Below, piece by piece: positions 17,484-55,971 of a DNA stretch of 64,000 bases (positions are counted from its first letter, which is position 1; the number at the start of each line of letters is the position of its first letter). The translations under genes and the position numbers were made by a program. The notes below the pieces were generated by a model. The model worked only from the letters and a program-made list of their open reading frames with translations. It did not search any database and was not told the DNA's origin. Source of the DNA: Aphrocallistes beatrix (lineage: Eukaryota; Porifera; Hexactinellida; Sceptrulophora; Aphrocallistidae); the NCBI GenBank assembly GCA_963281255.1, contig OY725488.1:11195524-11259523 (forward strand), given 5' to 3'.

Positions 17484-18048
17484 GTTAGCATGTACACTAA
17501 TGCACTGATAATGTATCCCTAAGCCCATCTGTCCCAACGTCGCATTCTGCGGTATTTGACAGTCAGTGCTTCCGCCGTCTAGGGGGGGAGAAGAACCCCA
17601 GTTGTAAATATATTAAAAATTCGAATTTTAAACTTATCCTGATATAGGTATACAATTTTACTAGCTAGATATACCTAAGATAATGATTTAATCATCTGTT
17701 TACTTCCTGGGCTCTAGTAATTTACGGTCGACTTTCCTGAAAAATGTATGGACTTGCTGATGTTTTAAAATTTCTTAGAAATAGCAACTTCTCACTCCCA
17801 CGTACCCCCTCGTCCTGCCACTGTTAACAGTTCGAATCATTTGTTTGTCGGAATCCTTTTAGTATACATGAAGATCTGATTTATAACTTCATTAAACTGC
17901 GTACACTATTTCAATTTTTTTGTTCCTTTATTTAATATTAAGTCACACTTGTTGAATACTGACAGAGCATTAAACTTTATTACTTAATAAATACTGTAAC
18001 CTCAATATTACAATTGAGCAGTACTGAGAATATACCAACCATCATGTA
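17484..18048 (+). other. start of CSE1L intron 5
   Basis: No gene or intact transposon was recognised between the exon 5 donor and the 3' end of the first 7TM gene. Confidence 0.55.
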
Positions 18049-19170
18049 CTATGAGTAATGTCGGATAAGAAGAGCTTGTAAGTTGTCTGTATTGTATCTG
18101 TATGTCTTCTTGGATTTGCCTCGTATCGAGTTGTAGACTGAATTGACCCAGATGCATAGTGTAATGCATGTGAACGGGAAAATTAAAATGACCGAACCCA
18201 AAAACAAAGAATTAGTTGCTATTGACCAAATGTAAGATAAGACTTTGATCAAGATTGATATGTGCACGGAATTCGTCGGGATGAAGTTTGAGATTAGATT
18301 GAAAGGAAATTTGCAATTCCTAAAGAATAAAAGGCTGGTGAGGAAACCTGGAATGAATGCTAAGAGTCTGGACAGCATTATCAGCAATTCACCACAGCAC
18401 ACTGTCCGAATGGTATACTTGAAATATTTGTATTGTCTAACTTCCTCTTTGTTAGATCCGAACTGTGCCAGTCTTTCATTCGCACTCTGTAGCAGGGTGT
18501 ATTCAAACTGTTTGACTGCTCTTACAAAGATATAATAGTAGATTGGTAGTACAGTTAGTATTAACAAAATAGCAGAGTACTGTACCCATACTATTCCAAT
18601 CATGAAGACACTTATTGCAGTGAAAGCGAAAAAAAGTCGAAAAGTGAGCATTTTTGATGGATACTGGGTGTTCTTTATTCTCTGTGTCAGATATTTCATC
18701 AAACACACACTAAATACAAGAACGAACCATTCTACAATACTCTGTGAGATCGTGAGTATCATTCGAATAGGATTTGCTACTTGACTATACTGAAATTCCA
18801 GCAACATTTTATTCTCTATTTTACTGCACTCAGACAGTTTCAACTTGGTACTGTTCGCTATTTCAGGAAATGTAATATAGTTAAGATCCACGAGTGCAGT
18901 AAGACAATATAAAATCATGCAAGATGTTTCACTCAGGCTAATCAGGAGCAAATACGCATACTTTCTTATTTCAGTTTGGTAATGGTAACAGAATTGTTCG
19001 AATTCAGTACGTGAATCTTCTGACTGCTCAGTAATCAAGTGTCTAGCTGCAACTCTCAAATACTTCTTGGACTGATAGATCCGATAACTGAACACTATCA
19101 TCCAGTACAAACTCAATACTAAGAAAATGATAGAAGATGATAATATTATTGCGATGTTGAATTGATCCAT
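18049..19170 (-). CDS. 7TM family protein, copy 1
   Basis: This 373-residue intronless frame has seven hydrophobic segments near residues 6-29, 72-94, 136-160, 177-197, 198-218, 256-284 and 315-345. Loops 1-2, 3-4, 5-6 and the C-tail are rich in Lys/Arg, so the N-terminus should face outside, as in GPCRs. The 45-residue first inner loop (KKYLRVAARHLITEQSEDSR) is almost invariant in the array. Predicted outer loops carry one conserved Cys each (LSECSK and FRNCKFPF), possibly disulfide-bonded. With the copy at 44022 it forms a subgroup marked by EIANSTKLKLSEC, which includes an NST sequon. No DRY or NPxxY motif is present. Function is unknown; a receptor is plausible. Confidence 0.85.
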   Translation of the reverse strand: MDQFNIAIILSSSIIFLVLSLYWMIVFSYRIYQSKKYLRVAARHLITEQSEDSRTEFEQFCYHYQTEIRKYAYLLLISLSETSCMILYCLTALVDLNYITFPEIANSTKLKLSECSKIENKMLLEFQYSQVANPIRMILTISQSIVEWFVLVFSVCLMKYLTQRIKNTQYPSKMLTFRLFFAFTAISVFMIGIVWVQYSAILLILTVLPIYYYIFVRAVKQFEYTLLQSANERLAQFGSNKEEVRQYKYFKYTIRTVCCGELLIMLSRLLAFIPGFLTSLLFFRNCKFPFNLISNFIPTNSVHISILIKVLSYIWSIATNSLFLGSVILIFPFTCITLCIWVNSVYNSIRGKSKKTYRYNTDNLQALLIRHYS

Positions 19171-19230
19171 ACTATTAATTCACAAGGGAAGATGCTAAAT
19201 TTTGGAAATGTAATTTTGAGTGAAAGTAGG

Positions 19231-19246
19231 ACTATTTATAGTTCTA
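19231..19246 (-). promoter_or_regulatory. TATA box of 7TM copy 1
   Basis: The minus-strand sequence ACTATAAATAGT lies about 60 bp upstream of the ATG. It is at the same position as in the other copies and is preceded by TAGATAGA. Confidence 0.6.
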
Positions 19247-19679
19247 TCTAGTAATTGCGCAAATTTACTGTGTTTTTATACTGGAATTGATTTGCTTCGT
19301 GTACAATTCCTTGAAGATGGAATATCACTCTCACAATACTTGAGAATAGTCCATTGTCTTGTTATTTGATGTGGACATGGAAATTATTGTCGACTATGTT
19401 TCGATACAGTTTGATTACAATTGGCCTTAGTGTACTTTACAGTTTGAGGTTATATCCGATGATTTAGCTGGAACTGATTTCAGCAAGATTGATTTGCTGG
19501 GAATATTCCTGGAGTACAAATGTTACATACAGTACAAGTGTATTAAACTCTTTCTACGAATATTTATAATGCCAATTGAGAGAGGAGAAATGGTTCGTTA
19601 AATATTGATTAGGGAATTATAGAATGATAGTATAACTAATTCCATATAATAAAGCCAAATTGTTAATTAAGATATAGTG

Positions 19680-20480: not shown

Positions 20481-20562
20481 TGAATATAACTCGATTTATC
20501 TTATAACGACTAGCCAATTATTTGATCAATTTCTGCAAAAATTCTTAGCATTTTACTATATA

Positions 20563-21503: not shown

Positions 21504-21599
21504 TACGATGGATACGTTAATAATCTTCAACAGCTGTTTTAATGTAATCTATAAAATGCATCATTAAGAATACAATATATATAATTATCCCAAAGCAGG

Positions 21600-22158: not shown

Positions 22159-23340
22159 CTATATTATTAGTGGTTGGTAGATGATTGGGGTGTGGCGAGA
22201 AACTCCAAATCGTATTCTAAAATCTCGCCATAATCTTGATCCAAAATGAAAAAATGATATCAAAAAGTAGTGAGAAAATAAGCAAATACAACCTATACAA
22301 AATAACACATTCTCAACCCAGTTTACAATGGTAATAGACTTCTTGAGTTGATCAATCTGAGTAGAATCCACCAGTGGAGGCTGATAGAAAACCTTCCCAT
22401 ACGCGAATTCTGTGAAACATGGACTAAAGTAAATGGCTATCGAGGTGACAAAGGTATATTGAGTCACAAACTCAGCAGTAATGAAACACGCTAGACCCAT
22501 GCAATTCAATGTAGCTATGGTACCATACTGTTTCACTAGTCGAATGGATGCTTGAATAGTTGCACTGGGCTTGCAGATAATACCCATATCAATGGTTTGC
22601 CTTTTTAAGGTGTTGTGAAACATACGTATGTGCTTGACCAATAAACCGAGAAAGATAGATTGAATTATTGGTTCGATGATCCGTTGTAGGATCAGTAACT
22701 GTGGTATTACACTGAATACTATTAATATGATGCATACGAGTGAAGTGAGCGAAAGAAAACGCGAGATCCACCTGAAATTCCCAGCAATACCATAATAGCT
22801 ATTATGGAGGTATCTGATGAGACAGATACAGAGAGTCATGGTGAGTAGCATGCCTATCTGTCCTACTGCTAGAACAAAGCTGAGTTCAGGTATGATAGAT
22901 GTAACTGTTTGCATATTTCGTACATTGACATAGTCCAAAGTGCAATTGGATTGTTCAACATTTCCTGGAAAATGTAACGACTGTTTCCCACTGCTCAAGA
23001 AGTATGACGCTGCTAGCACGATTCCATAACAACTGAATGCTATTAGTTCAATAATGTTAATGATGAAGAGGAGAGAATATTTTACTACCTCGATCTTGTG
23101 ATTTTCAGCTAATTGGGAAAAGTTTCCTAAAATATCATATTTTGCCTTTTCTAGCGCTTTCGAGCGTTCTTTATTGAAGAATTGAAGCTTTTTAACAAAA
23201 TAAACACTCCAAAGAAAGTATAAAATTGATGTCAGTAATAAAAATGGTATAAAAATGATGCAATCCATCATAAAAACTATTGAATTCACAATGAAATTTG
23301 ATTTTGCATCGCTGTCACTAGATTTCGATTGTAAATCCAT
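22159..23340 (-). CDS. divergent 7TM paralogue, copy 2
   Basis: This 393-residue intronless frame has the same length class and hydrophobic layout as its neighbours but low sequence identity. Its N-terminus is longer and polar (MDLQSKSSDSDAKSN). Shared landmarks suggest common ancestry. After the first inner loop, HKIEVVKYSLLFIINIIEL parallels YQTEIRKYAYLLLISLSE. The outer loop has FPGNVEQSNCT where others have FPDIENE...LSNCS, and CLIRYLHN parallels SLMKYLTQ. The frame is intact despite this divergence, so it is probably an old, selected member. Molecular function is unknown. Confidence 0.75.
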   Translation of the reverse strand: MDLQSKSSDSDAKSNFIVNSIVFMMDCIIFIPFLLLTSILYFLWSVYFVKKLQFFNKERSKALEKAKYDILGNFSQLAENHKIEVVKYSLLFIINIIELIAFSCYGIVLAASYFLSSGKQSLHFPGNVEQSNCTLDYVNVRNMQTVTSIIPELSFVLAVGQIGMLLTMTLCICLIRYLHNSYYGIAGNFRWISRFLSLTSLVCIILIVFSVIPQLLILQRIIEPIIQSIFLGLLVKHIRMFHNTLKRQTIDMGIICKPSATIQASIRLVKQYGTIATLNCMGLACFITAEFVTQYTFVTSIAIYFSPCFTEFAYGKVFYQPPLVDSTQIDQLKKSITIVNWVENVLFCIGCICLFSHYFLISFFHFGSRLWRDFRIRFGVSRHTPIIYQPLII

Positions 23341-24672: not shown

Positions 24673-25803
24673 TTAAGCAAGGAGTGGATCTTGTAAGTTG
24701 TCAATTTTGTACCTGTATATCTTCTTGGGTGTTCCTCGTATTGACTTGTAGGCTTTACTGAACCAGATATATAATGTTATGCCTGTGAACGGAGATATTG
24801 TGATAATTATCCCACAAATCGAAAATAGATGTCCTAATCTCCAAATGTAAGTTAAAACTCGGATCAATAATGCTATTTGATCAGGTTTCCATGAAATGGG
24901 ATTATAATTTGGAATAAAATTGAAAGGGAATTGGCAATTCCTGTAGAATAAAATGCTAGTTAGAAATCCTGGAAAATACCCTAGTAATTTTGCCACTATG
25001 ATGATGAAGTAACCACAGCATACTATCCGCATCGTATACTTAAAATACTTGTGCTGTCTCAATTGATTTTTGTTCGATCCGAACTGTGCCAGTCTTTCAT
25101 ATGCACTCTGAAGTAGAGAGTATTCAAACTGTTTAACTGCTCTCAGGAAGAAGTAATAGTTAATTGGTAGTACAGTAAGTATTAGCAAAATAGCAAAGTA
25201 CTCTCTCCAAGCTACTCCAAGCATTAACACACACACACTTAAAAGTGCAATATTTCCGATAAAAATTCTGATTTTATAACCTTTTGATGGATACCTGATG
25301 TTCTTTATTCTCTGTGTCAGATACTTCATCAAACTTATGCTGATTACTAAAAGAAATGATTCCAGTATGTTCTGTAGCGTTGAAAGAGTATTAAGTATAG
25401 GATTTGCAGCTTGATGATAATGGAACTTCATTAAATCTGAGTTCTCAACTTGACTACAATTAGACAACCTTAATAGTACCTCGTTCTCAATATCAGGAAA
25501 TGTAATGTAGTTCTGCAGATCCACAAGGGCAGTTATAGAGAATAGGATTATGCAAGTTATTTCACTCAGGTTAATCAGGAGCAAATACGCATACTTTCTT
25601 ATTTCAGTTTGGTAATGGTAACATAATTGTTCGAATTCAGTACGTGAATCTTCTGACTGCTCAGTAATCAAGTGTCTAGCTGCAACTCTCAAATACTTCT
25701 TGGACTGAGAGATCCGATAACTGAACACTATCATCCAGTACAAACTCAATACTAAGAAAATAATAGAAAATAAGAATATTACAGCGATGTTTAATTGATC
25801 CAT
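24673..25803 (-). CDS. 7TM family protein, copy 3
   Basis: This 376-residue intronless frame can serve as the type copy. Predicted membrane segments are near 5-28, 72-95, 136-160, 178-199, 202-222, 260-287 and 322-349. The basic first inner loop (29-71) is the most conserved part. Cys116 lies in an NCS sequon between segments 2 and 3, and Cys290 lies in FYRNCQFPF between segments 6 and 7. The tail is short and basic and ends NLQDPLLA, which recurs in most copies. It is very close to copy 4 in the first 100 residues. There is no signal peptide apart from segment 1. It is probably a surface receptor or channel-like protein; the ligand and partner cannot be inferred. Confidence 0.87.
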   Translation of the reverse strand: MDQLNIAVIFLFSIIFLVLSLYWMIVFSYRISQSKKYLRVAARHLITEQSEDSRTEFEQLCYHYQTEIRKYAYLLLINLSEITCIILFSITALVDLQNYITFPDIENEVLLRLSNCSQVENSDLMKFHYHQAANPILNTLSTLQNILESFLLVISISLMKYLTQRIKNIRYPSKGYKIRIFIGNIALLSVCVLMLGVAWREYFAILLILTVLPINYYFFLRAVKQFEYSLLQSAYERLAQFGSNKNQLRQHKYFKYTMRIVCCGYFIIIVAKLLGYFPGFLTSILFYRNCQFPFNFIPNYNPISWKPDQIALLIRVLTYIWRLGHLFSICGIIITISPFTGITLYIWFSKAYKSIRGTPKKIYRYKIDNLQDPLLA

Positions 25804-27679: not shown

Positions 27680-28804
27680 TTAAGCAAGGAGTGGATCCTG
27701 TAAGTTGTCTATTTTGTATCTGTATATCTTCATGGATGTTCCCCGTATTGACTTGTAGGCTTGAACGAACCATTTAGATAATGTTATCCCTGTGAACGGA
27801 GATATTGTGATAATTACCCCACAAATCGAAAATAGATGTCCTAATCTCAAGATGTAAGTTAGAACTCGGATCAATAATGCTATTTGATCAGGTTTCCATG
27901 AAATGGGATTATAATTTGGAGTAAAATTGAAAGGGAATTGACAATTCCTGTAGAATAAAATGCTAGTTAGAAATCCTGGGAAATAGATTAGTAACTTTGC
28001 AACTAAGATGATGAAGTAACCACAACATACTGTCCGCATCGTATACTTGAAATACTTGTACTGTTTAAATTCATTTTTGTTCGATCCGAACTGTGCCAGT
28101 CTTTCATATGCACTCTGAAGTAGAGAGTATTCAAACTGTTTAACTGCTTTCAGGAATAAGTAATAGTAAATTGGTTGCACAATGTGTATTAACAAAATAG
28201 CAAAGTACTCTCTCCAAGCTACTCCAAGCGTTAAAACACACACAATTGCAAGTGCAATATTTCCGATAAAAATTCTGATTTTATAACATTTTGATGGATA
28301 CCTGATGTTCTTTATTCTCTGTGTCAGATACTTCATCAAACTTATACTGAATACTCCGAGAAATAATTCCAATATGTTCTGAAGCATTGAAAGAGTATTA
28401 AGTATAGGATTTGCTTGATGATAATGGAACTTCATTAAATTTGAATTCTCAAATTTACTACAATTAGACAACCTTAATGATGCCTCTTTCTCAATATCAG
28501 GAAATGTAATGTAGTTCAGATCCACAAGGGCAGTTATAGAGAGTAGGATCATGCAAAATGTTTCACTCAGATTAATCAGGAGTAAATACGCATACTTTCT
28601 TATTTCAGTTTGGTAATGGTAACAGAATTGTTCGAATTCAGTACGTGAATCTTCTGACTGCTCAGTAATCAAGTGTCTAGCTGCAACTCTCAAATACTTC
28701 TTGGACTGAGAGATCCGATAACTGAACACTATCACCCAGTACAAACTCAATACTAAGAAAATAATAGAAAATAAGAATATTACAGCGATGTTTAATTGAT
28801 CCAT
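27680..28804 (-). CDS. 7TM family protein, copy 4
   Basis: This 374-residue intronless frame is near-identical to copy 3 over the first inner loop and in the C-terminal third (NYNPISWKPDQIALLIRVLTY). One Ala codon is missing in the HYHQANPIL segment, where others have HYHQAANPI. The layout of seven membrane segments, the two outer-loop Cys and the NLQDPLLA tail are kept. The frame is fully open, and the promoter has the shared TATA box. It is probably functional. Its 3' flank (CATCACGTTTCA.TGATTCACTCC) is also shared with copies 3, 5 and 6. Confidence 0.87.
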   Translation of the reverse strand: MDQLNIAVIFLFSIIFLVLSLYWVIVFSYRISQSKKYLRVAARHLITEQSEDSRTEFEQFCYHYQTEIRKYAYLLLINLSETFCMILLSITALVDLNYITFPDIEKEASLRLSNCSKFENSNLMKFHYHQANPILNTLSMLQNILELFLGVFSISLMKYLTQRIKNIRYPSKCYKIRIFIGNIALAIVCVLTLGVAWREYFAILLIHIVQPIYYYLFLKAVKQFEYSLLQSAYERLAQFGSNKNEFKQYKYFKYTMRTVCCGYFIILVAKLLIYFPGFLTSILFYRNCQFPFNFTPNYNPISWKPDQIALLIRVLTYILRLGHLFSICGVIITISPFTGITLSKWFVQAYKSIRGTSMKIYRYKIDNLQDPLLA

Positions 28805-31771: not shown

Positions 31772-32902
31772 TTAAGCAAGGAGTGGATCCTGTAAGTTTT
31801 CAATTTTGTATCTGTATATCTTCTTAGAAGTTCCTCGTATTGACTTGTAGGCTTTACTGAACCAGATATATAATGTTATGCCTGTGAACGGAGATATTGT
31901 GATAATTATCCCACAAACAGCAAATAGATGTCCTAATCTCTAAATGTAAGTTAGAACTCGGATCAATAATGTTATCTGATCAGGTTTCCATGAAATGGGA
32001 TTATAATTTGGAGTAAAATTGAAAGGGAATTGGCAATTCCTGTAGAATAAAATGCTAGTTAGAAATCCTGGAAAATACCCTATTAATCTTGCCACTAAGA
32101 TGATGAAGTAACCACAACATACTGTCCGCATCGTATACTTAAAATACTTGTACTGTTTAAATTCATTTTTGTTCGATCCGAACTGTGCCAGTCTTTCATA
32201 TGCACTCTGAAGTAGAGAGTATTCAAACTGTTTAACTGCTTTCAGGAAGAAGTAATAGTTAATTGATAGTACAGTAAGTATTAGCAAAATAGCAAAGTAC
32301 TCTCTCCAAGCTACTCCAAGCGTTAAAATACTCACACTTAAAAGTGCAATATTTCCGATAAAAATTCTGATTTTATAACCTTTTGATGGATATTTGATGT
32401 TCTTTATTCTCTGTGTCAGATACTTCATCAAACTGATGCTGAATACTAAGGTAAATAATTCCAGTACGTTCTGTAGCGTTGAAAGTGTATTAAGTATAGG
32501 ATTTGCAGCTTGATGATAATGGAACTTCATTAAATCTGAGTTCTCAACTTTACTACAATTAGATAACCTTAATAGTACCTCGTTCTCAATATCAGGAAAT
32601 GTAATGTAGTTCTGCAGATCCACAAGGGCACTTATAGGGAATATGATTATACAAGATGTTTCACTCAGGTTAATCAGGAGTAAATACGCATACTTTCTTA
32701 TTTCAGTTTGGTAATGGTAACATATTTGTTCGAATTCAGTACGTGAATCTTCTGACTGCTCAGTAATCAAGTGTCTAGCTGCAACTCTCAAATACTTCCT
32801 GAACTGATAGATCCGATAACTGAACACTATCATCCAGTACAAACTCAGTACTGAGTAAATGATGGAAAATAAGAATACTATAGCGATGTTGAATTGATCC
32901 AT
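31772..32902 (-). pseudogene. 7TM family copy 5, nonsense-truncated
   Basis: Apart from one codon the 377-codon frame is intact and the same length as copy 3. The Trp codon at position 321 (TGG in the paralogues) is TAG at 31940-31942. The predicted product stops at 320 residues, just before membrane segment 7 and the C-tail. Downstream sequence still reads in frame through LQDPLLA, so the mutation looks recent. A Ginger transposon sits 66 bp upstream of the ATG, in the TATA box. Both changes argue against normal expression. A truncated 6TM product cannot be excluded. Confidence 0.85.
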
Positions 32903-32968: not shown

Positions 32969-35900
32969 TGTTGCAGTGCAAACGCGAGATTGGTGTACAC
33001 GCGTGTACACCAGTGTGAATGCGTGTACACCAACTAGCTGGTGTACACGCGTGTACACTGGTGTGAACCCGGGTTTCCATTAAGTTTGATAATCTCGCGT
33101 TTACACCAGTGTAAACGCGAGTACCTATATAATTAAATATTGTGGTTGATTTATTACTCTAGAAAATACGATATGATGAGACGTATACTAATTACATCTA
33201 ATCTGATTTATTCTCGTGTGCAATTCGATTTCAATAAGTATTATAATCTCGGTTTCTAGTTTTATTACTTAGGGAATTTTAGACACATGCATTGAGATAT
33301 TTGTGTATAGAAAAGGGACATTTGCGTAGAATTATCTTTGGTACTATTGTGGGATTGTTGCAGTGTATACGCTACCCACTGTGAACGCGTTCACACCGGT
33401 GTATATAATATTTTATAGGCGACTCCAGATATTTATCCCAATTGTATTTGTATTCCACTATAGTCCGAGATTTTCCTCTCCTCTCTAGGTGACAACAATA
33501 GCTGTAGATCGATATTTGAGCGTCTGAGATTCAAAAAATTATGGGGAGCAAGCCCCCAGACCCCCTTACAATCGCTCGCTTCGCTGGCTCTTGCCCCCCT
33601 AGGTTTAATTTTAGGTATGATATTAAGCTGGACCCAATGTACAAGTGTACTTATATATTGTATTTAGTACTCGATTAGTACAGTGGAGGCGCTGGGAATT
33701 TCTTCTGGGGAGGGCGGTCAAAGTGGCTACCAATGCATAGGGATCTAATTATTTACTAATTTGCGTTAGCATAAATACCCCCATTATTTTGAGTGGGGCG
33801 GGGGTATTAAATAAAATAATCCTCCCACATTTTGGGATGAGGAAACTCTATAGGGATATCTTTCTAGTGCTTTACTGATTATACCATATCACAACACACA
33901 AATAAGTATATAGTTGGTTCAAATGCACCCGTCGTTGGGGTTGTGATATATGTCGATACCAATACGGTAAGTTCGGCTGTTTTGATGCTTAACATGCTGT
34001 GGATTGTAAAAGTCAGCAAGTTTGTATAAACAATTTATCAATTAGTAGCAACAAAACTGGTCAAGTTGATTTTTATTATCAATGATAAATTTATATATAC
34101 ATACGGGACTACATTGTTATGTTTACTCGATTATTAAGAGTCTTCAACGAAACATTAAAAGAAATAGTACTTTATTGTTATTCATTGCATATACGTAATT
34201 ATGTTTACGAATACATGGTTTCATATACCTGGGTATAGAATAGTAATCGAAATTTTGGACCCGAGAAATGTCCTGTGCTTTGAGAACCAGGTTCAACCCC
34301 TAGTTATAATGGTAAATCAAAACTTTGGGAGGGCGACCGCACGTTCGTCCCCCCCGGTCCGCCGCCACTGGATTAGTATGGAATTAAAAATATATGGTGT
34401 TGAAATATTTTCCGCTCAGAATACTGCTGACCTAAATCATTAATAATGTAATGAAATGAGAGGATTTCAAATTTTGCGCGCGCTATTGCGTCTTTTCGAC
34501 TAACTCGATTGCACAGTAAACACACAAAACTAAACATACTTGTTAAAACAAGTATGACCCTTATGGCATTTTGTATTACAGCTTCTATTTGATTTCTTGC
34601 AGGGGCATCTCTGAGTCTTGCAATGTTTACATCTACAAGCTGAGCTATTGCAAATTCCAAGAGAGGCGCTTTGCATTGCCTCGGTCTGCGAGATAGTACC
34701 AGCAGGGATTGAATCAATTGAGAGAATATTTGTTGGGCATACTTCGAACTGGTTACGACAATAATTAACAGCCAACGTTCCTTGATTTGTTCCAATTGAG
34801 TATGTTGAATCGCTTCTGCTCGTGATACATCCAATAATGTTACGAGGACCTAAGGAACTTACTTTATCAGGCTGCGAGATAGGTATTAGCACTGAATCAC
34901 CCACTTCAGCATGCTTGAACTTCTTCACACTTGCATTTAACATTCTCTCTTGCTGCTTTTCTTGGCTGCGTTTGATTCAATCTTATCGCATGCAGCATTT
35001 CTTGTCGAAAAATCACATGCAGGGCACACCACACTACTTCCGTAGCCTTCCTCTCCTTCAGTTCTTCCACAGATAGTGTGGATATTTCCAAAACAATATG
35101 GACATGAGTGTGCACCAGTTGTTTCTCTGCAGCATACAACGCATTCTTTGCTAGGATTCAAACAATCTGATTCTGCTGAGGGGACTTGATATGAATTACT
35201 TGGAGAATTAGAAATTTGGATATTTTGAGCAAATGAATTATTCACCGGTGTTGGGAAACTTTCAGATCGAATTGGGACAAGATTTTCGTGAACAATTATT
35301 CCAACCGGAAGTGGGGCCACAATTGCATTATCATATTCATCGATAGGAGGAAATTTTGAGGGAGGTGGTGATGGAATAACATGATCATATTCATCGTAAT
35401 GAGAAATAATTGAAAGAGGTGAATCAATTTGCGAATAATGGCTATCAAACTCTGAACGTTCGATGCTATCCAAAAGTTCGTTGTCAACCTCTAAGCTTTC
35501 ACGTTGTTCTATCTCCTTTTGAAAGATATCAATGTCATCTTTAGTGTTAATCTCTGCCCAGAATTCTTGAGGAATGCTAATATTGGATAACCCGATCGAA
35601 GGCTTTTTGTTATATACAGCTTCATATGGACTCATTCGAATTGCTGTATGGTAACTAGTATTATGATTCCATTGCACCCATCTGAGGTATTTGACCCAAC
35701 ATTGATCGTTGTCATGATCATGCATCATCCCGAATAGGCTGTCCTTAATGTCGCGATTAACTCGCTCTACAGCTCCTTGACTCTCTGGATGTCGAGGTTT
35801 CCCGTGAACTATCTTCAAAGTGGGCCACTTCGCTGCTAGAGTTGAAAACAGAAGATTGTTGGAAAACTCTTTCCCATTGTCAGAGTGCAAGATTTGAGGA

Positions 35901-37362
35901 GGCCCAGAATCACAGAAGATATCTAAAAGTCGCTCAGTTACCTCTTCAGCTGTTTTACGTTTGAGCGGGAACACATTTATCTTCTTGGTAAAATGATCGA
36001 TGTACACCAATATAAACTTATAGGGTGTGACGCCATCTGGTGATAGATTAACCTCAGGATTCTGATCGCTCATATCTATCAAATCGATCTGAGCCCGGGA
36101 AAGAAAGTTGGTTGAAGATATGGGTTTTACAACAATGCTCTTAAGGGACTTCTTGGACTTTTTGAGGTGGCACACTTGACATGTCCTAACGAACAGTCCA
36201 CATATTTTTTCACTTACACCGTAAAACTCTTGTGCAGCACGTTTGTAGAGTTGTCCGACCTGTATGGTTCCCCTCGATTTTGTGAAGCTTTTCCAAGATT
36301 GGGAACAACTCCTCCACTGCCAATACCCGTTTCGCAGGTGCATCTCATCTCCTCTTCAGATAAAGAATTTCTGTTCCTTGATAGGATAATAACTCAAAGC
36401 GATCATGAACCCTTTGCCATTTTGAGAGTTCTTTTTTCTGGTTGACCGACGGTTTCGCTCCATGAAGCATTGCGATTTTGTTAACAATATCAGCTCGTGT
36501 AAAATTCGAACTTGATGCATCCTTCGACAAAGAAAACACCAATTTTTCAAACTCTACCTTGGACATTTTAATATGCAACAATTGCAATTCTATGATCTAG
36601 ACTAAATTGTCAATGAACATATCTACTTATGGCATTTTGCAAGAACATCAAACTCGACATCTGCTCATGCACCATTCCAAGCAATTTAACAGCTGTCAGA
36701 TTTACTGTAAACAGGAAGAAATATCTCTCGAGATGACAAAGACATTTAATGGATACTTATTTTTATGTTGCCCATCATACATTTATTTTAGGTTTTCATC
36801 ACACTTATAAAATCGTGACTTATTTCAGTATAATGCAGATTGCAAATTCTACAATTACTCTTCTTATTTATTCATGGCATGCTACATAGAATCTTTAAAA
36901 TTAACACAATGCAATTAATTACTAAAGACTCTCGAAATCCAAACAAATTAAAAGAGAAAATTTTAATACGTATTAAATTAGTTAATTAATATAGTATACT
37001 GTTTTAACAATAAACAATTCATCATATCGTATTCTAGAGTAATAAATCAACCACAATATTTAATTATATAGGTACTCGCGTTAACACTGGTGTAAACGCG
37101 AGATTATCAAACTTAATGGAAACCCGGGTTTACACCAGTGTACACGCGTGTACACCAGCTAGTTGGTGTACACGCGTTCACACTGGTGTACACGCGTATA
37201 CACCAATCTCGCGTTTGCACTGCAACATAAACGCAAGATTATCAAACTTAATGGAAACCCGGGTTTACACCAGTGTACACACGTGTACACCAGCTAGTTG
37301 GTGTACACGCGTTCACACTGGTGTACACGCGTGTACACCAATCTCGCGTTTGCACTGCAACA
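32969..37362 (-). mobile_element. Ginger-type DNA transposon (4.4 kb)
   Basis: Termini begin TGTTGCAGTGCAAACGCGAG and are inverted over about 210 bp. They are flanked by TTTA on both sides (32965-32968 and 37363-37366), a 4-bp target duplication. TGT ends, short duplications and an integrase-like transposase are what I recall for Ginger elements. The inverted repeats are full of GTGTACAC palindromes. The outer part of the right end (about 133 bp) is tandemly duplicated, giving a second inner terminus at 37227. Its transposase is broken, so it is not autonomous today. Paralogous 7TM promoters show the empty site. Confidence 0.85.
34530..36587 (-). pseudogene. broken Ginger transposase (KRBA2-like integrase)
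   Basis: Three frames together give one family-like protein. The N-terminal part (36345-36587) ends at an in-frame TGA. A frameshift near 36250 then leads to the main 468-residue frame (34937-36343), and another near 34940 leads to the C-terminal 137 residues (34530-34943). Domains in order are: an H2C2-type zinc-binding region ending CQVC; the integrase core with D87 (QIDLID), D155 (HSDNGKEF) and E193 (GAVERVN) of the main frame; a CxxC-rich PHD-like zinc finger (CVVC, CPYC, CPAC); and a terminal Cys-rich CXC-like segment (CKHCKTQRCPCKK). The core looks intact, but the gene cannot make a full protein. Confidence 0.85.
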
Positions 37363-38430
37363 TTTATACGAATATTTATCTCTATCTAATTATACAAAGT
37401 TTAGTGGGTGTGTTTTAACTGGAATTTCCACTGATAATTTCTTGAACATGGAGTATCACTCTCATCTGATTCCTATCGAGTAGTATGATGTAATGCTTGA
37501 GAAGAGTCCAGTGTATTTTTCTTTGATGTAGAGAAGAATATTATTGTCGACTAAGATACAATACAGCTATACTCTTTGATTACAATTGACCTTCTATGTA
37601 AATATATTATGTTAGATGATCTAAGCAAGAAATGATTGATTTGCTGGTGATATCCCTAGAGTGCTAATGTTACATACAATAAAGGACTGAACTCTTTCTA
37701 CGAATACAGCAAGTTATCGAAATTGCATCTGCTGCTGTCTGGTAATTATTGTCATGGAAAAGGTTCAATACACAGTTTTAATTCTTCACACTATCTAATT
37801 TCTATTACTTAGGGCATTCAAAAAGTTCTCATCCCATATCTGTATCTGAAATGATAGTGAAAATATAATATTTTCGATATGTCCATTGTAACTATTCCTT
37901 AAGAGATCGGCTTCCAAGTATTTTAATTGAATAATTCATAATCCTTCATCATCTTTCAATGAATTAGTCAACTTAGGTTTAAGGTAGTCCCTTTGAAAGT
38001 GGTTTTGGGGTTCCCTTTGATATAATTCAGTTCTGAGCAAAATTTGATTAAAACTGATCCCTCCATTGAATTCTACGCATCAACTAACATATAGTAGATT
38101 GACTTCTCTAAAGTATTCTAGTTAGGCTGTGAGAATAATGTGTTTTGAAGTGGTTTACTACCACTTTTGCCTCACTTTTTAAATGGCGAAAATTGACGGT
38201 ATGATATCTTTCATTACGAGCAATACTATTGAACACCTCCCGTTTACTTTTTTACATTAGTTCTTGACTATTTAACCTTTTAATGATCTTATTCTACGAT
38301 TTTCACAATTTTTATTCTCTAAATTTAGTTTCAAGCCGTTTTCAATGGGAAGATTCCAACTTTCGACACTACCCTAAACCGATGTACAAAAATCTAATGT
38401 AGGAACCACAATAATTGTCCTCTTAAAATA
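37363..38430. other. rest of copy 5 promoter and spacer, displaced by Ginger
   Basis: Sequence right of the element (TATCTCTATCTAATTATAC, then TTTCCACTGATAATTTCTTG) continues the upstream region of the 7TM unit exactly where the left flank stops. No gene was recognised. Confidence 0.7.
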
Positions 38431-39174: not shown

Positions 39175-40293
39175 TTAAGCAAGGAGTGGATCCTGTAAGT
39201 TTTCAATTTTGTATCTGTATATCTTCTTGGATGTTCCTCGTATTGACTTGTAGGCTTGAACGAACCATTTAGATAACGTAATGCCTGTGAACGGAGATAT
39301 TGTGATAATTATCCCACAAACAGCAAATATACGTCCTAATCTCCAGATGTAAGTTAGAACTCGGATCAATAATGCTATCTGATCAGGTTTCCATGAAATG
39401 GGATTATAATTTGGAGTAAAATTGAAAGGGAATTGGCAATTCCTGTAGAATATAATGCTTGTAAGAAATCCTGGAAAATATCCTATTAAATTTGCAACCA
39501 TGATGATGAAGTAACCACAGCATACTGTCCGCATTGTATACTTGAAATACTTGTACTGTCTCAATTGATTTTTGTTCGATCCGAACTGTGCAAGCCTTTC
39601 ATATGCACTCTGAAGTAGAGAGTATTCAAACTGTTTAACTGCTTTCAGGAATAAATAATAGTAAATTGGTTGCACAATGTGTATTAGCAAAATAGCAAAG
39701 TACTCTCTCCAAGCTACTCCAAGCGTTAGAACACACACACTTAAAACTGCAGATAATATTCTAGATTTATAATTTTTTGATGGACGCTTGATGTTCTTCA
39801 TTCTCTGTGTCAGATACTTCATCAAACTTATGCTGAATGCTAAGAGGAATAATTCCAGTACGTTCTGTAGCGCAAAAAGAGTATTAAATATAGGATTTGC
39901 AGCTTGATGATAATGAAACTTCATTAAATTTGAATTCTCAACTTTACTACAATTGGATAACCTTAATAATATCTCGTTCTCAATATCAGGAAATGTAATG
40001 TAATTCAGATCCACAAGGCCAGTTATTGAGAATAGAATTATGCAAGTTATTTCACTCAGGCTAATCAGGAGTAAATACGCATACTTTCTTATTTCAGTTT
40101 GGTAATGGTAACAGAATTGTTCGAATTCAGTACGTGAATCTTCTGACTGCTCAGTAATCAAGTGTCTAGCTGCAACTCTCAAATACTTCTTGGACTGATA
40201 GATCCGATAACTGAACACTATCACCCAGTACAAACTCAATACTGAGAAAATGATGGAAAATAAGAATACTATAGCGATTTTTAATTGGTCCAT
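39175..40293 (-). CDS. 7TM family protein, copy 6
   Basis: This 372-residue intact intronless frame has seven membrane segments, the near-invariant first inner loop, both outer-loop Cys (LSNCSKVEN, FYRNCQFPF) and the tail ENLQDPLLA. The loop before segment 4 differs from its neighbours (MKNIKRPSKNYKSRIL), and a few residues are missing there relative to copy 3. It is head-to-head with the broken copy 7. The two upstream regions are inverted duplicates of each other. Probably functional; role unknown. Confidence 0.87.
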   Translation of the reverse strand: MDQLKIAIVFLFSIIFSVLSLYWVIVFSYRIYQSKKYLRVAARHLITEQSEDSRTEFEQFCYHYQTEIRKYAYLLLISLSEITCIILFSITGLVDLNYITFPDIENEILLRLSNCSKVENSNLMKFHYHQAANPIFNTLFALQNVLELFLLAFSISLMKYLTQRMKNIKRPSKNYKSRILSAVLSVCVLTLGVAWREYFAILLIHIVQPIYYYLFLKAVKQFEYSLLQSAYERLAQFGSNKNQLRQYKYFKYTMRTVCCGYFIIMVANLIGYFPGFLTSIIFYRNCQFPFNFTPNYNPISWKPDQIALLIRVLTYIWRLGRIFAVCGIIITISPFTGITLSKWFVQAYKSIRGTSKKIYRYKIENLQDPLLA

Positions 40294-41984: not shown

Positions 41985-43066
41985 ATGGAACAATTAAATA
42001 TCATCATTGTGCTCTCATTTTCTATAATTTTCTTGGTAATGAGTGTGTACTGGATGATAGTGTTCAGTTATCGGATCTCTCAGTCCAAGAAATATTTGAG
42101 AGTTGCAGCTAGACACTTGATTACTGAGCAGTCAGAAGATTCACGTACTGAATTCGTACAAATATGTTACCATTACCAAACTGAAATAAGAAAGTTATGC
42201 GTATTTGCTCCTGATTAACCTGAGTGAAACATCTTGCATAATCCTATTCCTTATAACTTGTCTTGTGAATCTTAACTACATTACATTTCCTGATATTGAG
42301 AACGAGGTACTATTAAGGTTGTCTAATTGCAGTCAAGTTGAGAATTCAAATTAATACTCTTTTTACGCTACAGAACATACTGGAATTATTCCTCTTAGCA
42401 TTCAGCATAAGTTTGATGAAGTATCTGATCCAGAGAATGAAGAACATCAGGTGTCCATCAAAAAAATATAAATTCAGAATATTATCTGCACTTTTAAGTG
42501 TGAGTGTGTTAACGCTTGGAGTAGCTTGGAGAGAGTACTTTGCTATTTTACCAATACTTACTGTTATACAACCAATATATTATCATGTCTTCCTGAAAGC
42601 AGTTAAACAGTTTGAATACTCTCTACTTCAGAGTGCATATGAAAGACTGGCACAGTTCGGATCGAACAAAAATCAATTGAGACAGTACAAATATTTTAAG
42701 TATACGATGCGGACAGTATGCTGTGGTTACTTCATCATCATAGTTGCAAAGTTACTAACCTATTTTCCAGGATTTCTAACTAGCATTTTATTCTACAGGA
42801 ATTGCCAATTCCCTTTCAATTTTACTCCAAATTATAATCCCATTCCATGGAAACCTGATCAGATAACATTATTGATCCGAGTTCTAACTTACATCTGGAG
42901 ATTAGGACATCTATTTTCGATTTGTGGGATAATTATCATAATATCTCCGTTCACAGGCATAACATTATATATCTGGTTCAGTAAGGCCTACAAGTCAATA
43001 CGAGGAACATCCAAGAAGATCTACAGATACAATAGAGACAACTTACAGGTTACACTCCTTGCTTAA
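41985..43066 (+). pseudogene. 7TM family copy 7, inverted and frameshifted
   Basis: This is the only array member on the + strand. It starts normally (MEQLNIIIVLSFSIIFLVMS) through the conserved inner loop. An extra T near 42195 then shifts the frame and stops it at 42218. A 41-bp deletion near 42350, flanked by a short repeat, removes the outer-loop HYHQAANP segment and shifts the frame again. From about 42345 the rest of the protein is open to the end (segments 3-7, tail NLQVTLLA). It still has a GATA/TATA-like promoter. Confidence 0.88.
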
Positions 43067-44021: not shown

Positions 44022-45146
44022 TTAATCTTTATCGAGAAGGGTTTCTTGCAGGTCGTTTCTGTATCTGTATCCTTTCTTAGACTTTCCATGTATTGACAGG
44101 TAAACCTGACGAATCCACGTACACAGTGTTATGCATATAAAAGGAGATAATGTTAATGTTGTGCCCAAAAAACCGATCAAAAACCCCGCATACCAGATCC
44201 AGTTCAGAATTTGAATTAACTTTGATATTTCTACTTGATTCTCCGACACAGAGATGTAACTTGGAATGACACTGAGAGAAAATTGGCATTTCCCGTAGAA
44301 TAGAATGCTAGTAATGAATCCTGGAAAATACACTAACAATCTTGCCGCTATGATGAAGAAGTAGCCACAACATATTGATCGCATTGTGTATTTGAAGTAC
44401 TTGTACTGTCTGAATTCTTTTTCGTTCGACCCGAACTGTATCAGTCTTTCATATGCAATCTGAAGCAGAGTGTATTCAAACTGTTTAACTGCTCTCAGGA
44501 AGATGCAATAGTAGATTACGAGTAAAGTAAGCACTAACAAAATAGCGAAGTACTCTCTCCAAACTATTCCAACCGTGAAGACACTCAGCAGTGCAGTGAA
44601 GAAGATGAATGGTCGGAATTTATGATTTCCTGGATGCTTAACTCTCTTTATTCTCTGCGTCAGATATTTCATCAAACACACGCTTAACATAAGAACTAGC
44701 AGATATTCTACAATACTCTGTGAGGCAGCGAGTGTTGTGCGAATAGGATTTGCTGCTTGATTATACTGAAATTCCAGCAACATTTTATTCTCTATTTTAC
44801 TGCATTCAGACAGTTTCAACTTGGTACTGTTCGCTATTTCAGGAAATGTAATATAGTCACAATCCACGAGTGCACTAAGACAATATAAAATCATGCAGAA
44901 TGTTTCACTCAGGCTAATCAGGAGCAAATACGCATACTTTCTTATTTCAGTTTGGTAATGGTAACAGATTTGTTCGAATTCAGTACGTGAATCTTCTGAC
45001 TGCTCAGTAATCAAGTGTCTAGCTGCAACTCTCAAATACTTCTTGGACTGAGAGACCCGATAACTGAACACTATAACCCAGTACAAACTCATTACCAAGA
45101 AAATGATCGATAATGAGAGCACTATAACGGAATTTAGTTGTTCCAT
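44022..45146 (-). CDS. 7TM family protein, copy 8
   Basis: This 374-residue intact intronless frame groups with copy 1 through EIANSTKLKLSECSKIENK and IRTTLAASQSIVE, although the two are 25 kb apart. The first inner loop is nonetheless almost identical, even in DNA, to the other subgroup. Its tail differs (KGYRYRNDLQETLLDKD). The outer loop between segments 6 and 7 reads FYGKCQFSLSVIPSY, keeping the Cys. The promoter has the shared TATA box. It is probably a functional, distinct receptor-like subtype. Confidence 0.87.
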   Translation of the reverse strand: MEQLNSVIVLSLSIIFLVMSLYWVIVFSYRVSQSKKYLRVAARHLITEQSEDSRTEFEQICYHYQTEIRKYAYLLLISLSETFCMILYCLSALVDCDYITFPEIANSTKLKLSECSKIENKMLLEFQYNQAANPIRTTLAASQSIVEYLLVLMLSVCLMKYLTQRIKRVKHPGNHKFRPFIFFTALLSVFTVGIVWREYFAILLVLTLLVIYYCIFLRAVKQFEYTLLQIAYERLIQFGSNEKEFRQYKYFKYTMRSICCGYFFIIAARLLVYFPGFITSILFYGKCQFSLSVIPSYISVSENQVEISKLIQILNWIWYAGFLIGFLGTTLTLSPFICITLCTWIRQVYLSIHGKSKKGYRYRNDLQETLLDKD

Positions 45147-46578: not shown

Positions 46579-47706
46579 TTAAGCAAGGAGTGGATCCTGT
46601 AAGTTGTCTATTTTGTATCTGTATATCTTCTTGGATGTTCCTCGTATTGACTTGTATGCTTGACTGAACCAGATATATAATGTTATGCCTATGAACGGAG
46701 ATATTGCGATAATTGTCCCACAAACTGTAAATACTTGTCCTAATCTCCAAATGTAAGTTAGAACTCGGATCAATAATGCTATTTGATCAGGTTTCCATGA
46801 AATAGGATTATAATTTGGAGTAAAATTGAAAGGAAATTGGCAATTCCTGTAGAATAAAATGCTAGTTAGAAATCCTGGAAAATTAGCTGGTAATTTTGAT
46901 GCTATGATGATGAAGTAACCACAACATACTGTCCGCATCGTATACTTGAAATACTTGTACTGTTTGAATTCATTTTTGTTCGATCCGAACCGTGCCAGTC
47001 TTTCATATGCACTCTGAAGTAGAGAGTATTCAAACTGTTTAACTACTCTCAGGAAGAAGTAATAGTAAATTGATAGTACAGTAAGTATTAGAAAAATAGC
47101 AAAGTACTCTCTCCAAGCTACTCCAAGCGTTAAAAAACTCACACTTAAAAGTGCAATATTTGCGAGAAAAATTCTGATTTTATAACCTTTTGATGGATAT
47201 TTGATGTTCTTCATTCTCTGTGTCAGATATTTCATCAAACTAATACTGAATACTAAGGTAAATAATTCCAGTACGTTCTGTAGCGTTGAAAGAGTATTAA
47301 ATATAGGATTTGCAGCTTGATGATAATGAAACTTCATTAAATCTGAGTTCTCAACTTTACTACAATTAGATAGCTTCAATAATACTTCGTTCTCAATATC
47401 AGGAAATGTAATGTAGCTAAGATGCACAAGGGCAGTTATCGGGAATAGGATAATGCATGATATTTCACTCAGGCTAATCAGGAGTAAATACACATACTTT
47501 CTTATTTCAGTTTGGTAATGGTGACAAAATTGTTCGAATTCAGTACGTGAATCTTCTGACTGCTCAGTAATCAAGTGTCTAGCTGCAACTCTCAAATACT
47601 TCTTAGACTGATAGATCCGATAACTGAATACTCTCACCCAGTACAAACTCAATACTGAGAAAATGATGAACAACGAGAATATTATTGCGATGTTAAATTG
47701 ATCCAT
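46579..47706 (-). CDS. 7TM family protein, copy 9
   Basis: This 375-residue intact intronless frame has all family marks: seven hydrophobic segments, the conserved inner loop, LSNCSKVENS, FYRNCQFPF and tail NLQDPLLA. Segment 1 begins IAIIFSLFIIFSVLSLYWVR, with an Arg where the others have Ile. Segment 6 has IIIASKLPANFPGF, with a Pro unlike its neighbours. Probably functional; role unknown. Confidence 0.87.
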   Translation of the reverse strand: MDQFNIAIIFSLFIIFSVLSLYWVRVFSYRIYQSKKYLRVAARHLITEQSEDSRTEFEQFCHHYQTEIRKYVYLLLISLSEISCIILFPITALVHLSYITFPDIENEVLLKLSNCSKVENSDLMKFHYHQAANPIFNTLSTLQNVLELFTLVFSISLMKYLTQRMKNIKYPSKGYKIRIFLANIALLSVSFLTLGVAWREYFAIFLILTVLSIYYYFFLRVVKQFEYSLLQSAYERLARFGSNKNEFKQYKYFKYTMRTVCCGYFIIIASKLPANFPGFLTSILFYRNCQFPFNFTPNYNPISWKPDQIALLIRVLTYIWRLGQVFTVCGTIIAISPFIGITLYIWFSQAYKSIRGTSKKIYRYKIDNLQDPLLA

Positions 47707-48858: not shown

Positions 48859-49976
48859 TTAAGCAAGGAGTGGAACCTGTAAGTTGTCTCTATTGTATCT
48901 GTATATCTTCTTGGATGTTCCTCGTATTGACTTGTAGGCTTTACTGAACCAGATATATAATGTTATGCCTGTGAACGGAGATATTATGATAATTATCCCA
49001 CAAATCGAAAATAGATGTCCTAATCTCCAGATGTAAGTTAGAACTCGGATCAATAATGCTATTTGATCAGGTTTCCATGAAATGGGATTATAATTTGGAG
49101 AAAAATTGAAAGGGAATTGCAATTCCTGTAGAATAAAATGCTAGTTAGAAATCCTGGAAAATACCCTAGTAATTTTGACACTATGATGATGAAGTAACCA
49201 CAACATACTGTCCGCATCGTATACTTGAAATACTTGTGCTGTCTCAATTGATTTTTGTTAGATCCGAACTGTGATAGTCTTTCATATGCACTCTGAAGTA
49301 GAGAGTATTCAAACTGTTTAACTGCTCTCAGGAAGAGATAATAATATATTGATAGTACAGTAAGTATTAGCAAAATAGCAAAGTGCTCTCTCCAAGCTAC
49401 TCCAAGCGTTAAAACGCTCACACTTAAAAGTGCAGTAAAAATTATGATTTTATAACCTTTTGATGGATACCTGATGTTCTTTATTCTCTGTGTCAGATAC
49501 TTCATCAAACTTATACTGAATACTAAAAGAAATAATTCCAGTATGTTCTGTAGCGTTGAAAGAGTATTAAGTATAGGATTTGCAGCTTGATGATAATGGA
49601 ACTTAATTAAATCTGAGTTCTCAACTTTACTGCAATTAGACAACCTTAATAATACCTCGTTCTCAATATCAGGAAATGTAATGTAGTGAAGATCTACAAG
49701 GGCAGTTATAGAGTGTAGGATTATGCAAGATGTTTCACTCAGGTTAATCAGGAGTAAATACGCATACTTTCTTATTTCAGTTTCGTAATGGTGACATATT
49801 TGTTCGAAGCTAGTGCGTGAATCTTCTGACTGTTCGGTAATCAAGTGTCTAGCTGCAACTCTCAAATACTTCTTAGACTGAGAGATCCGATAACTGAACA
49901 CTATCATCCAGTACAAACTCAATACTAAGAAAATGATAGAAAACGAGGATATTATGACAATTTCTACAGAATGCAT
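48859..49976 (-). pseudogene. 7TM family copy 10, 1-bp deletion
   Basis: It is open for 290 codons, then one G is missing near 49119: GGGAATTGCAATTCC against GGGAATTGGCAATTCC in paralogues. That sends FYRNC into another frame and a stop at 49059. The rest, including segment 7 and the tail NLQVPLLA, is intact in the original frame down to 48859. The N-terminus (MHSVEIVIISSFS) and promoter resemble copy 11, not the others. The lesion is a single base, so it is either recent or an assembly error. Confidence 0.85.
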
Positions 49977-50855: not shown

Positions 50856-50859
50856 CTTT

Positions 50860-52860: not shown

Positions 52861-52864
52861 TTCT

Positions 52865-53165
52865 TAAATCCTTTCTGTCTTTATAACTCAAAAAGTATTC
52901 ATTGTATAAAAATGGTCAAAACGACGCAAATTGTCTCCTCCTCAAGATGACACGTTTTGAATTTTAAAAAATGCCTTTTGACACAGTTATGACGTTTGTA
53001 GTAGAAAAAGTCTAAATTTTGTGGAAACTATTACTTGAATGCGTCATAACTATGTCAAAAGGCGTTTTCGAAATTCTAACTAGTCATCTTGAAAAGCAGA
53101 TAATTCTGCGTCGCTTTGAGCACGCATATTCTTTAGATATAGTGAAAAATCTTTGAGTTATAATG
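52865..53165. repeat. fold-back repeat, family F, copy 3
   Basis: The arms contain GTCAAAACGACGCAAATTGT/CTCCTCCTCAAGATGAC and CATCTTGAAAAGCAGATAATTCTGCG. The centre includes GACACAGTTATGACG and CGTCATAACTATGTC. Confidence 0.65.
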
Positions 53166-53901: not shown

Positions 53902-54273
53902 TGATGATTATGCAAATTTCAAAACGTCACTCAATATCTCTAAAATGAACATTTCTTAATGTTTCTAAATATCGAATTTTCGTGTCCTTCTAGTCACTTA
54001 CTTGAGTTACACTATCGATCTGCCGACTAGCATTTTTTTCATTCCCATTGCAACCCTGGGTGTTCAACTCAAATATATAAATATAAACTCATGGGCTGCC
54101 ATGATTGATAATGCCTTATAACATTTAGAGGGCAGGGCCCGTCCCTGGGTGGTACCTATCCCCAAAGATCCAACTGATTAAACTGTTTTAATGGATTAGG
54201 CACATCATTACATTCAAATCAGAGTAATAATTCACACATAAAATACATTATATCTTTATCTACCATGCTAACA

Positions 54274-55386
54274 TTAATCAAGGAGTGGATCCTGTAAGTT
54301 GTCAATTTTGTATCTGTATATCTTCTTGGATGTTCCTCGTATTGACTTGTAGGCTTGACTGAACCAGATATATAATGTTATGCCTGTGAACGGAGATATT
54401 GTGATAATTGTCCCACACTCTATAAATACTCGTGCTAAATTCCGAATGTAAGTTAAAACTCGGATCAATAATGCTATTTGATCAGGTTTCAATGAAATAG
54501 GATTATAATTTGAAGTAAAATTGAAAGGGAATTGGCAATTCTTGTAGAATAAAATGCTTGCAAGAAATCCAGGAAAATACCCTATTAATTTTGACACTAT
54601 GATGATGAAGTAACCACAACATACTGTCCGCATTGTATACTTAAAATACTTGTACTGTCTCAATTCATTTTTGTTCGATCCGAACTGTGCCAGTCTTTCA
54701 TATGTACTCTGAAGTAGAGAGTATTCAAACTGTTTAACTGCTTTCAGGAAGAAGTAATAGTAAATTGATAGTACAGTAAGTATTAGCAAAATAGCAAAGT
54801 ACTCTCTCCAAGCTACTCCAAGCGTTAAAAAACTCGTACCTAAAACTGCAGTAAAATTTTTGAATTTATAACCTTTTGATGGATACCTGATGTTCTTTAT
54901 TCTCTGTGTCAGATACTTCATCAAACTTATGCTGAATGCTAAGAGGAATAATTCCACTATGTTCTGTAGCATTGAAAGAGTATTAAATATAGGATTTGCA
55001 GCTTGATGATAATAAAACTTTATCAAATTTGAATTCTCAACTTTGCTACAATTAGATAACCTTAATAATACTTCGCTCTCAATATCAGGAAATGTAATGT
55101 AGTTAAGATCCACAAGGCCAGTTATTGAGAATAGAATTATGCAAGATATTTCACTCAGGTTAATCAGGAGTAAATACGCATACTTTCTTATTTCAGTTTG
55201 GTAATGGTAACAGATTTGTTCGAATTCAGTACGTGAATCTTCTGACTGCTCAGTAATCAAGTGTCTAGCTGCAACTCTCAAATACTTCTTGGACTGAGAG
55301 ATCCGATAACTGAACACTATCATCCAGTACAAACTCAATACTAAGAAAATTATAGAAAATGAAAATATTATGACAATTTCTATCAT
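54274..55386 (-). CDS. 7TM family protein, copy 11
   Basis: This 370-residue intact intronless frame has seven hydrophobic segments, the conserved inner loop, LSNCSKVENSN, FYKNCQFPF and tail NLQDPLLD. The start is MIEIVIIFSFS. Relative to copy 10 (MHSVEIVII) one extra base lies between the ancestral ATG at about 55393 and this one. The older ATG is therefore out of frame and overlaps the used start. It is the last array member before CSE1L exon 6. Probably functional; role unknown. Confidence 0.86.
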   Translation of the reverse strand: MIEIVIIFSFSIIFLVLSLYWMIVFSYRISQSKKYLRVAARHLITEQSEDSRTEFEQICYHYQTEIRKYAYLLLINLSEISCIILFSITGLVDLNYITFPDIESEVLLRLSNCSKVENSNLIKFYYHQAANPIFNTLSMLQNIVELFLLAFSISLMKYLTQRIKNIRYPSKGYKFKNFTAVLGTSFLTLGVAWREYFAILLILTVLSIYYYFFLKAVKQFEYSLLQSTYERLAQFGSNKNELRQYKYFKYTMRTVCCGYFIIIVSKLIGYFPGFLASILFYKNCQFPFNFTSNYNPISLKPDQIALLIRVLTYIRNLARVFIECGTIITISPFTGITLYIWFSQAYKSIRGTSKKIYRYKIDNLQDPLLD

Positions 55387-55430
55387 GATACATTTTTATC
55401 CAGTACTTTCAATTTTTTCGTTTTTATATT

Positions 55431-55971
55431 TCCTCTTCTTTGTATTATTCATAGAAAACATAATATTACAAATGTTAAATTTCAGAATACTTATAATTTG
55501 TAATCGTAATAGTACGTAATAGTGATAATATTATATTACACATAAACATAATGTAATTATGATAATAATAGAATACGTAGAAAGAATTATAAGTAAGAGT
55601 AATATATTACATTTTAAAGTAATTGTGCATACAGACAACATATTATGTTTCCTGTTGATATCAATGGCATCATGGTTGACTTTTCTTAATTGCTACTAAG
55701 CGATGCTAAATTTTCCGAATTTGTAATTGATCGAAGTTTATAAAATTTATAAATGAGCTTTCTTTTGTTTCACAGATACTCGCAAACGCTATCTGTCCGC
55801 CTATTGGACACCTTGTTCATTTCTGTTGCAAATAATAGAAATTTAATATGATTACAATATCAGAGTCAGTAAATTTTTAATAAAGTACTTTTTCCTGAGA
55901 ACTTAAATTTAAAATCCATACACTTTGAACGCCGTTTGACATAACTTTAGTTATTGCATTGGTTTATTTAG
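55431..55971. other. end of CSE1L intron 5
   Basis: TAATAG-rich repeat pieces lie near 55500-55625, then AT-rich sequence up to the acceptor ATTTAG. No gene was recognised. Confidence 0.55.

Follow-up and report, generated by a model that had tools for sequence, protein, structure and literature searches.

CSE1L and the genes within its introns

The window that we analysed is a stretch of 64,000 nucleotides from contig C1 (C1:11195524-11259523) of the glass sponge Aphrocallistes beatrix, whose genome assembly contains 100.5 Mb in 28 contigs. On its plus strand, the window carries the first eight exons of a gene for CSE1L (exportin-2, or Cse1p). The complete model has 11 exons, covers 148,355 bp (C1:11205744-11354098), and encodes 966 amino acids with no internal stops. 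Exon 1 (10221..10481) starts with the ATG and is followed directly by a GT donor. This exon, exon 2 (12478..12689), and exon 6 (55972..56085) come from the gene model; exons 3 (13238..13417), 4 (14082..14280), 7 (56262..56617), and 8 (57415..57627) were also marked by Pfam scans, and exon 5 (17219..17483) by both a Pfam scan and the alignment to yeast Cse1p. Exon 9 lies 83,942 bp beyond exon 8 and is outside the window (C1:11337093). We picked splice points by their GT-AG ends, by phase, and by similarity; the one that opens exon 10 is the least secure. All 10 introns are compatible with GT-AG ends and consistent phases, and the exons are collinear.

Yeast Cse1p matched the model over residues 23-929 (E = 2.4e-153). 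Judging from this nearly full-length match, and from exons that encode, in collinear order, the Cse1 and CAS_CSE1 domains, the host is CSE1L, as an earlier note on this DNA had proposed, and the gene appears to be intact. The introns are, in order, 1996, 548, 664, 2938, 38488, 176, 797, 83942, 1634, and 14271 bp long. The earlier note also tied growth of the nested array to the transcription length of the host, which stands only as arithmetic: introns 5 and 8 account for 122 of the 148 kb.

Intron 5 (17484..55971, plus strand; 38,488 bp) was said to split a glycine codon that is restored across 38.5 kb. At the level of sequence, this is correct. The donor is CTAGAAG/GTTAGC (17483/17484), the acceptor is TTTATTTAG/GTTCAG (55971/55972), and joining the two exons gives GAA GGT TCA (E-G-S), with the glycine codon divided as G/GT. 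Furthermore, the alignment to yeast Cse1p is unbroken over the junction (RRDLEGSDTDTRR). The gene model predicts that CSE1L is spliced across introns 5 and 8 in vivo.

Using tblastn, we found 11 single-exon 7TM genes or remnants in intron 5, ten from one subfamily and one from another, so that, by sequence, the array lies within one intron of an apparently intact host. Eight have intact frames (370-393 amino acids) and three are broken. All but one are antisense to CSE1L, and the lone sense copy is broken. This agrees with the earlier note, which had described eleven intronless 7TM genes or pseudogenes in one CSE1L intron, ten of them on the opposite strand. The intact genes, all on the minus strand, are gene 1 (18049..19170, 373 amino acids), gene 2 (22159..23340, 393 amino acids), gene 3 (24673..25803, 376 amino acids), gene 4 (27680..28804, 374 amino acids), gene 6 (39175..40293, 372 amino acids), gene 8 (44022..45146, 374 amino acids), gene 9 (46579..47706, 375 amino acids), and gene 11 (54274..55386, 370 amino acids). 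Gene 2 was placed by the tree in a distant subfamily, and its nearest relatives (about 54-55%) are on contig C10. Among the broken copies, copy 5 (31772..32902, minus strand) has one in-frame stop, copy 10 (48859..49976, minus strand) has a frame break near 49119, and copy 7 (41985..43066, plus strand), the only one in the sense of the host, has frame breaks as well as stops. An open reading frame of a mobile element, with an integrase core and a SCAND3-like zinc finger (Pfam), lies between 7TM copies (34937..36343, minus strand). Below, we refer to array members by their first coordinate.

Intron 5 is not special, as intron 8 is larger and likewise contains many antisense single-exon genes. 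In the first 46 kb of this 84-kb intron (to C1:11299523), there are eight single-exon helicase genes, seven intact and one broken, and all are antisense. The first of these AAA_11/AAA_12 helicase genes lies within the window (59327..63541, minus strand). We ran Pfam on two of the eight: AAA_11 and AAA_12 were well above the cut-off in both, and one had a CCCH finger below the cut-off. Intron 8 also contains at least four more 7TM loci, all antisense. Intron 4 contains a single-exon open reading frame of 290 amino acids with NHL repeats (14950..15822, minus strand; Pfam NHL, 4.3e-18).

Across the genome, the 7TM family numbers at least 105 loci, and they are frequent in the region of C1 between 10.4 and 12.2 Mb (58 loci by hand count). 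Inside CSE1L, 14 of 15 7TM loci are antisense, versus 19 of 43 on the minus strand elsewhere in this region (p = 0.0008, hand count); because array copies share their orientation by descent, so that there were few independent events, the bias is suggestive only. We propose that CSE1L lies in a region of ongoing expansion of single-exon families (about 10.4-12.2 Mb) and that its introns were colonised on the opposite strand. The reason for the bias might be that antisense placement lets the host transcript ignore the poly(A) signals of the nested genes, which would allow CSE1L to splice over 38 and 84 kb. A NACHT protein is encoded to the left of the CSE1L locus.

Promoter-like boxes and constraint

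Of 52 full-length members of the 7TM family, 47 have a core-promoter-like box (TATAWAWR) at 30-140 bp before the ATG, and in seven control bins of equal width farther upstream, it was present in 1-7 of the 52; these counts are not independent, as they include near-copies. (We fetched 60 loci and excluded 8 without a full frame.) The gene at 39175 is without a strict TATA-like box. This pattern suggests that the nested 7TM genes may be transcribed separately from their host. Also, dN/dS ranged from 0.28 to 0.59 over 45 pairs of 7TM genes, which shows that the proteins are constrained.

Founders of the array and probable homogenisation of the 5' end

We built a tree of 7TM proteins with 29 rows, which was rooted at the midpoint and in which several long branches were flagged. 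Eight of the ten-copy subfamily group with a gene from contig C15 (support 100/100), and the exclusion of the C15 gene from these eight is weakly supported (93/67). The gene at 44022 joins a C7 gene and a protein from an alternative contig (100/99), and 18049 stands apart. The ten-copy subfamily and its relatives from C7, C15, and the alternative contig fall together in a single group (13 rows), for which support is modest (90/68). Finally, 22159 is separated from the other array members by a branch with 100/100 support and falls near genes from C10 and C13 (88/93). As 22159 belongs to a distant subfamily, intron 5 had at least two founders. Thus, the earlier idea that the array expanded in place fits the ten-copy subfamily and does not extend to 22159, which has its closest relatives on C10 and C13.

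Silent sites in the ten-copy subfamily form a mosaic. We compared two old lineages of the array, 18049 and 44022, to its young clade (8 pairs) and found dS of 0.99-1.18 past codon 84, and of 0-0.15 in codons 22-84, a short segment with about 37 silent sites. Across this segment, dS between array genes and their non-array relatives on C7 and C15 was 0.24-0.42, and between the C7 and C15 genes it was 0.61. Informative sites changed in the same way. Before codon 84, there were 16 sites that unite the array copies against C7 and C15, 3 that agree with the tree, and 0 for the third (control) grouping; after codon 84, there were 3, 97, and 3 (Fisher p = 3e-7 for the contrast between codons 22-84 and the rest). 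In a permutation test of run lengths, one of 21 pairs was clear (18049/44022), and four more were at 33-62 of 2000.

The best reading of these sequence comparisons is that the first 84 or so codons were homogenised within the array by gene conversion. Alternatively, the silent sites of the 5' segment could be under constraint, as in an RNA or regulatory element, or the segment could have been replaced in the C7 and C15 genes instead of being converted in the array. The segment is short and close to the promoter, with few silent sites, as these explanations would have it. However, the divergence of the C7 and C15 genes from the array implies that any constraint is not absolute, and their divergence from each other implies that no single replacement was common to both. 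We consider these explanations unlikely. Under gene conversion, the first 84 or so codons would be evened out while the remainder of the gene, from TM3 to TM7, diverges.

Probable duplication of compact genes

For most pairs of array copies, similarity starts about 70-90 bp upstream of the ATG, which is at or just above the TATA-like box, and stops anywhere from less than 20 to several hundred bp past the stop codon. (48859 and 54274 have a common 5' end that is unlike that of the other copies.) A shared unit that reaches the TATA-like box and has a variable 3' end favours duplication of compact genes as DNA over retroposition. That mRNAs were copied back into the genome would account for genes without introns and for the short homology of many pairs, which continues for less than 20 up to about 100 bp beyond the frame. 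But family members that we fetched from other contigs are also single-exon, so no loss of introns is required, and the unit common to the copies usually contains the TATA-like box or borders on it. Also, some pairs share several hundred bp of additional sequence, the copies are clustered in one orientation, and an alignment of the 3' ends, inspected by eye, had no common poly(A) tail. We therefore do not favour retroposition, and give it little credence. Instead, a founder of the ten-copy subfamily probably reached intron 5 and multiplied there by local DNA duplication, with most units bringing along a TATA-like core promoter of their own; the distant-subfamily gene (22159) would have entered separately.

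Is CSE1L one intact gene?

We scanned the genome with the Pfam models PF08506 and PF03378 (E up to 1). The parts of these Pfam models with matches at window positions 14053, 17204, 56255, and 57436, as well as at C1:11337087 and 11339048, were each matched a single time, and none of the matches listed was inside intron 5. Parts of exons 3, 6, and 11 had additional partial copies elsewhere on C1, and a degraded copy of exon 1 lies at 3524-3927. These partial copies of exons point to past duplication and rearrangement of the region.

Exons 1-8 and 9-11 might then not form one gene that is spliced in cis: the pieces could be joined by trans-splicing, or the gene could be decaying. At 38 and 84 kb, two introns are far out of line with the rest (which range from 176 bp to 14 kb), and fragments of CSE1L exons are scattered over C1. 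Nevertheless, the ten GT-AG introns with consistent phases, the intact frame, and the collinear order of the exons make this very improbable. Least probable of all is that the array, or joins made in scaffolding, were inserted by mistake between exons that are truly adjacent: arrays are difficult to assemble and partial copies of CSE1L exons do lie elsewhere on C1, but neither the window nor the fetched loci contain any N, the array copies are clearly different from one another, several parts of the middle exons are single-copy and collinear, and the proteins of the array are on one contig of 1,739,404 bp in the protein collection (a weak argument, as this is probably the same assembly).

Overall, we think it likely that this is an apparently intact 148-kb CSE1L gene whose introns were colonised in antisense by single-exon families, with duplication in place and conversion of the 5' ends.

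A large family of GPCR-like proteins

Class A (rhodopsin-like, 7tm_1) GPCRs have the hallmark motifs DRY, NPxxY, and CWxP. None of the three is present in any of 52 7TM proteins from this family, and Pfam gave no significant match for the four members scanned, including none to 7tm_1 or to the TAS2R profile. By sequence, then, the family does not appear to belong to class A. The predicted models align best to GPCRs, and among the best rows of this fold comparison, class T (TAS2R) ties with class A; a Foldseek search yielded nothing with E under 0.16. TAS2R genes are single-exon and arranged in tandem. One pattern for the TM7 motif of TAS2R matched none of the 52 proteins. The family may resemble GPCRs of class T or class A in its predicted arrangement of seven helices with the N terminus outside, as judged by fold comparison only, and differs from them in having no significant Pfam match (four scanned) and no class A motifs (52 proteins). 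The charges of the loops are compatible with an outside N terminus, and hydropathy gave a variable count of 6-11 segments. Taken by themselves, neither this count nor the Foldseek search supports a GPCR fold. We suspect that the proteins are surface receptors (N-out/C-in), plausibly for chemicals or microbes. Separately, we found a single match to the rhodopsin family in this genome, using a method that overlooks genes interrupted by introns.

Searches of a protein collection matched at least 22, at least 7, and at least 20 proteins, none of which was named; two of these searches scored proteins among the best 7998 and 7997 candidates sharing the most words. The matches listed seem all to come from this genome or its alternative contigs. 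The portions of the literature consulted, including parts of PMC4302439 and PMC12716839, contain no account of this family, although it may still have been described elsewhere.

Comparison to other nested genes

Nested genes and nested clusters are already known, and CSE1L is a strong variant of them. The human KRTAP10/12 cluster within TSPEAR likewise consists of intronless paralogues arrayed in a different gene, but these are structural hair proteins of vertebrates, unlike the receptor-like array in CSE1L. An intron of dunce in Drosophila holds Sgs4 and four "ng" genes, which are, as in CSE1L, small intronless genes inside an unrelated gene; the parts of the account that we consulted describe secreted glue-like proteins, whereas CSE1L has an 11-copy receptor-like array and other families in other introns (PMC10835880). 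Small animal genomes can have many nested intronic genes: 12.24% of exonic bases are nested in the ctenophore Hormiphora (PMC8527503) and 12.4% of genes in Aphrocallistes itself, where tandem blocks with many single-exon genes occur as well (PMC10282587). The sections of these two reports that we drew on give counts and a few examples of nested genes, while in CSE1L arrays from several families fill one essential gene. The earlier note's word "unusual" should be tempered, given about 12% in both of these genomes (as far as those sections go), but it is unusual for one essential gene to house three single-exon families. What stands out more is that several features coincide: these families share an essential gene, they are placed mostly in antisense, and the main occupant is a GPCR-like family that has no name.

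A bolder and quite tentative idea is that these single-exon GPCR-like genes (at least 105 loci) form a large, lineage-restricted superfamily that diversifies by a cassette process housed in introns, in which conversion would keep the N-terminal part constant while TM3-TM7 diverge, and the introns of one essential housekeeping gene would offer protected, antisense, permanently open chromatin to three families. In any case, the CSE1L locus indicates the extent to which a compact animal genome may permit large gene families inside an essential gene, and it draws attention to a large, unnamed GPCR-like family. It could also be a test bed for whether antisense placement protects the host, whether host transcription affects the nested genes, and whether location in an active gene favours conversion.

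Genes and repeats in and around CSE1L

Intron 8 of CSE1L (83,942 bp) also contains a tandem array of single-exon AAA_11/AAA_12 helicase genes, all antisense to the host gene, which extends from window positions 59327-63541 into the adjoining C1:11259524-11298488 (loci L002-L005; C1 is the contig that carries CSE1L). Seven of these helicases are intact and one is broken, they are 1,308-1,464 amino acids long, and two of the eight were scanned with Pfam. To the left of CSE1L, another single-exon gene (L006:3252-6107) encodes a NACHT protein of 951 amino acids. Intron 6 (176 bp) is mostly occupied by an ATT microsatellite (49 copies, window 56107-56253), and at window 37093-37363 a 135-bp unit occurs twice (97%), with GTGTACAC-like words being abundant.

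Pieces of CSE1L itself also recur. The exon 1 region has a second, degraded copy at window 3524-3927 (82% identity over 437 alignment columns), which precedes the true exon by about 6.5 kb. Stray partial copies of exons 3, 6, and 11 are dispersed across about 445 kb of C1, at 11180855 (-), 11480129 (+), 11520784 (-), 11576317 (-), 11581361 (+), and 11626391 (+).

7TM loci elsewhere in the genome

In a genome scan in which six candidates were scored, and which intron-split members could escape, the sole rhodopsin-family (7tm_1) match at E < 0.001 was at C10:4157164-4158087 (L001), within an open frame of 620 amino acids. The 7TM matches at C4:4694327-4695412 and C5:5520-6605 have identical scores, and one of them is near a contig start; this pair is possibly a duplicated haplotype or a contig overlap.

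Between 430 and 656 kb of C10, 7TM loci with nearly equal scores lie at mirrored positions and on mirrored strands (for example, 430771 (+) with 655039 (-), and 461367 (+) with 628954 (-)), a pattern that suggests inverted duplication on a large scale, covering about 225 kb. On C1, the 7TM fragments at 11486480-11489890 (L027) and 11514623-11517916 (L035) lie in an inverted duplication with 98-99% identity. A stray copy of CSE1L exon 3 lies a few kb from each fragment, and exon copy and fragment are ordered relative to each other as they are in CSE1L. It looks as if a segment of CSE1L, with a 7TM copy nested in it, was first duplicated and afterwards mirrored.
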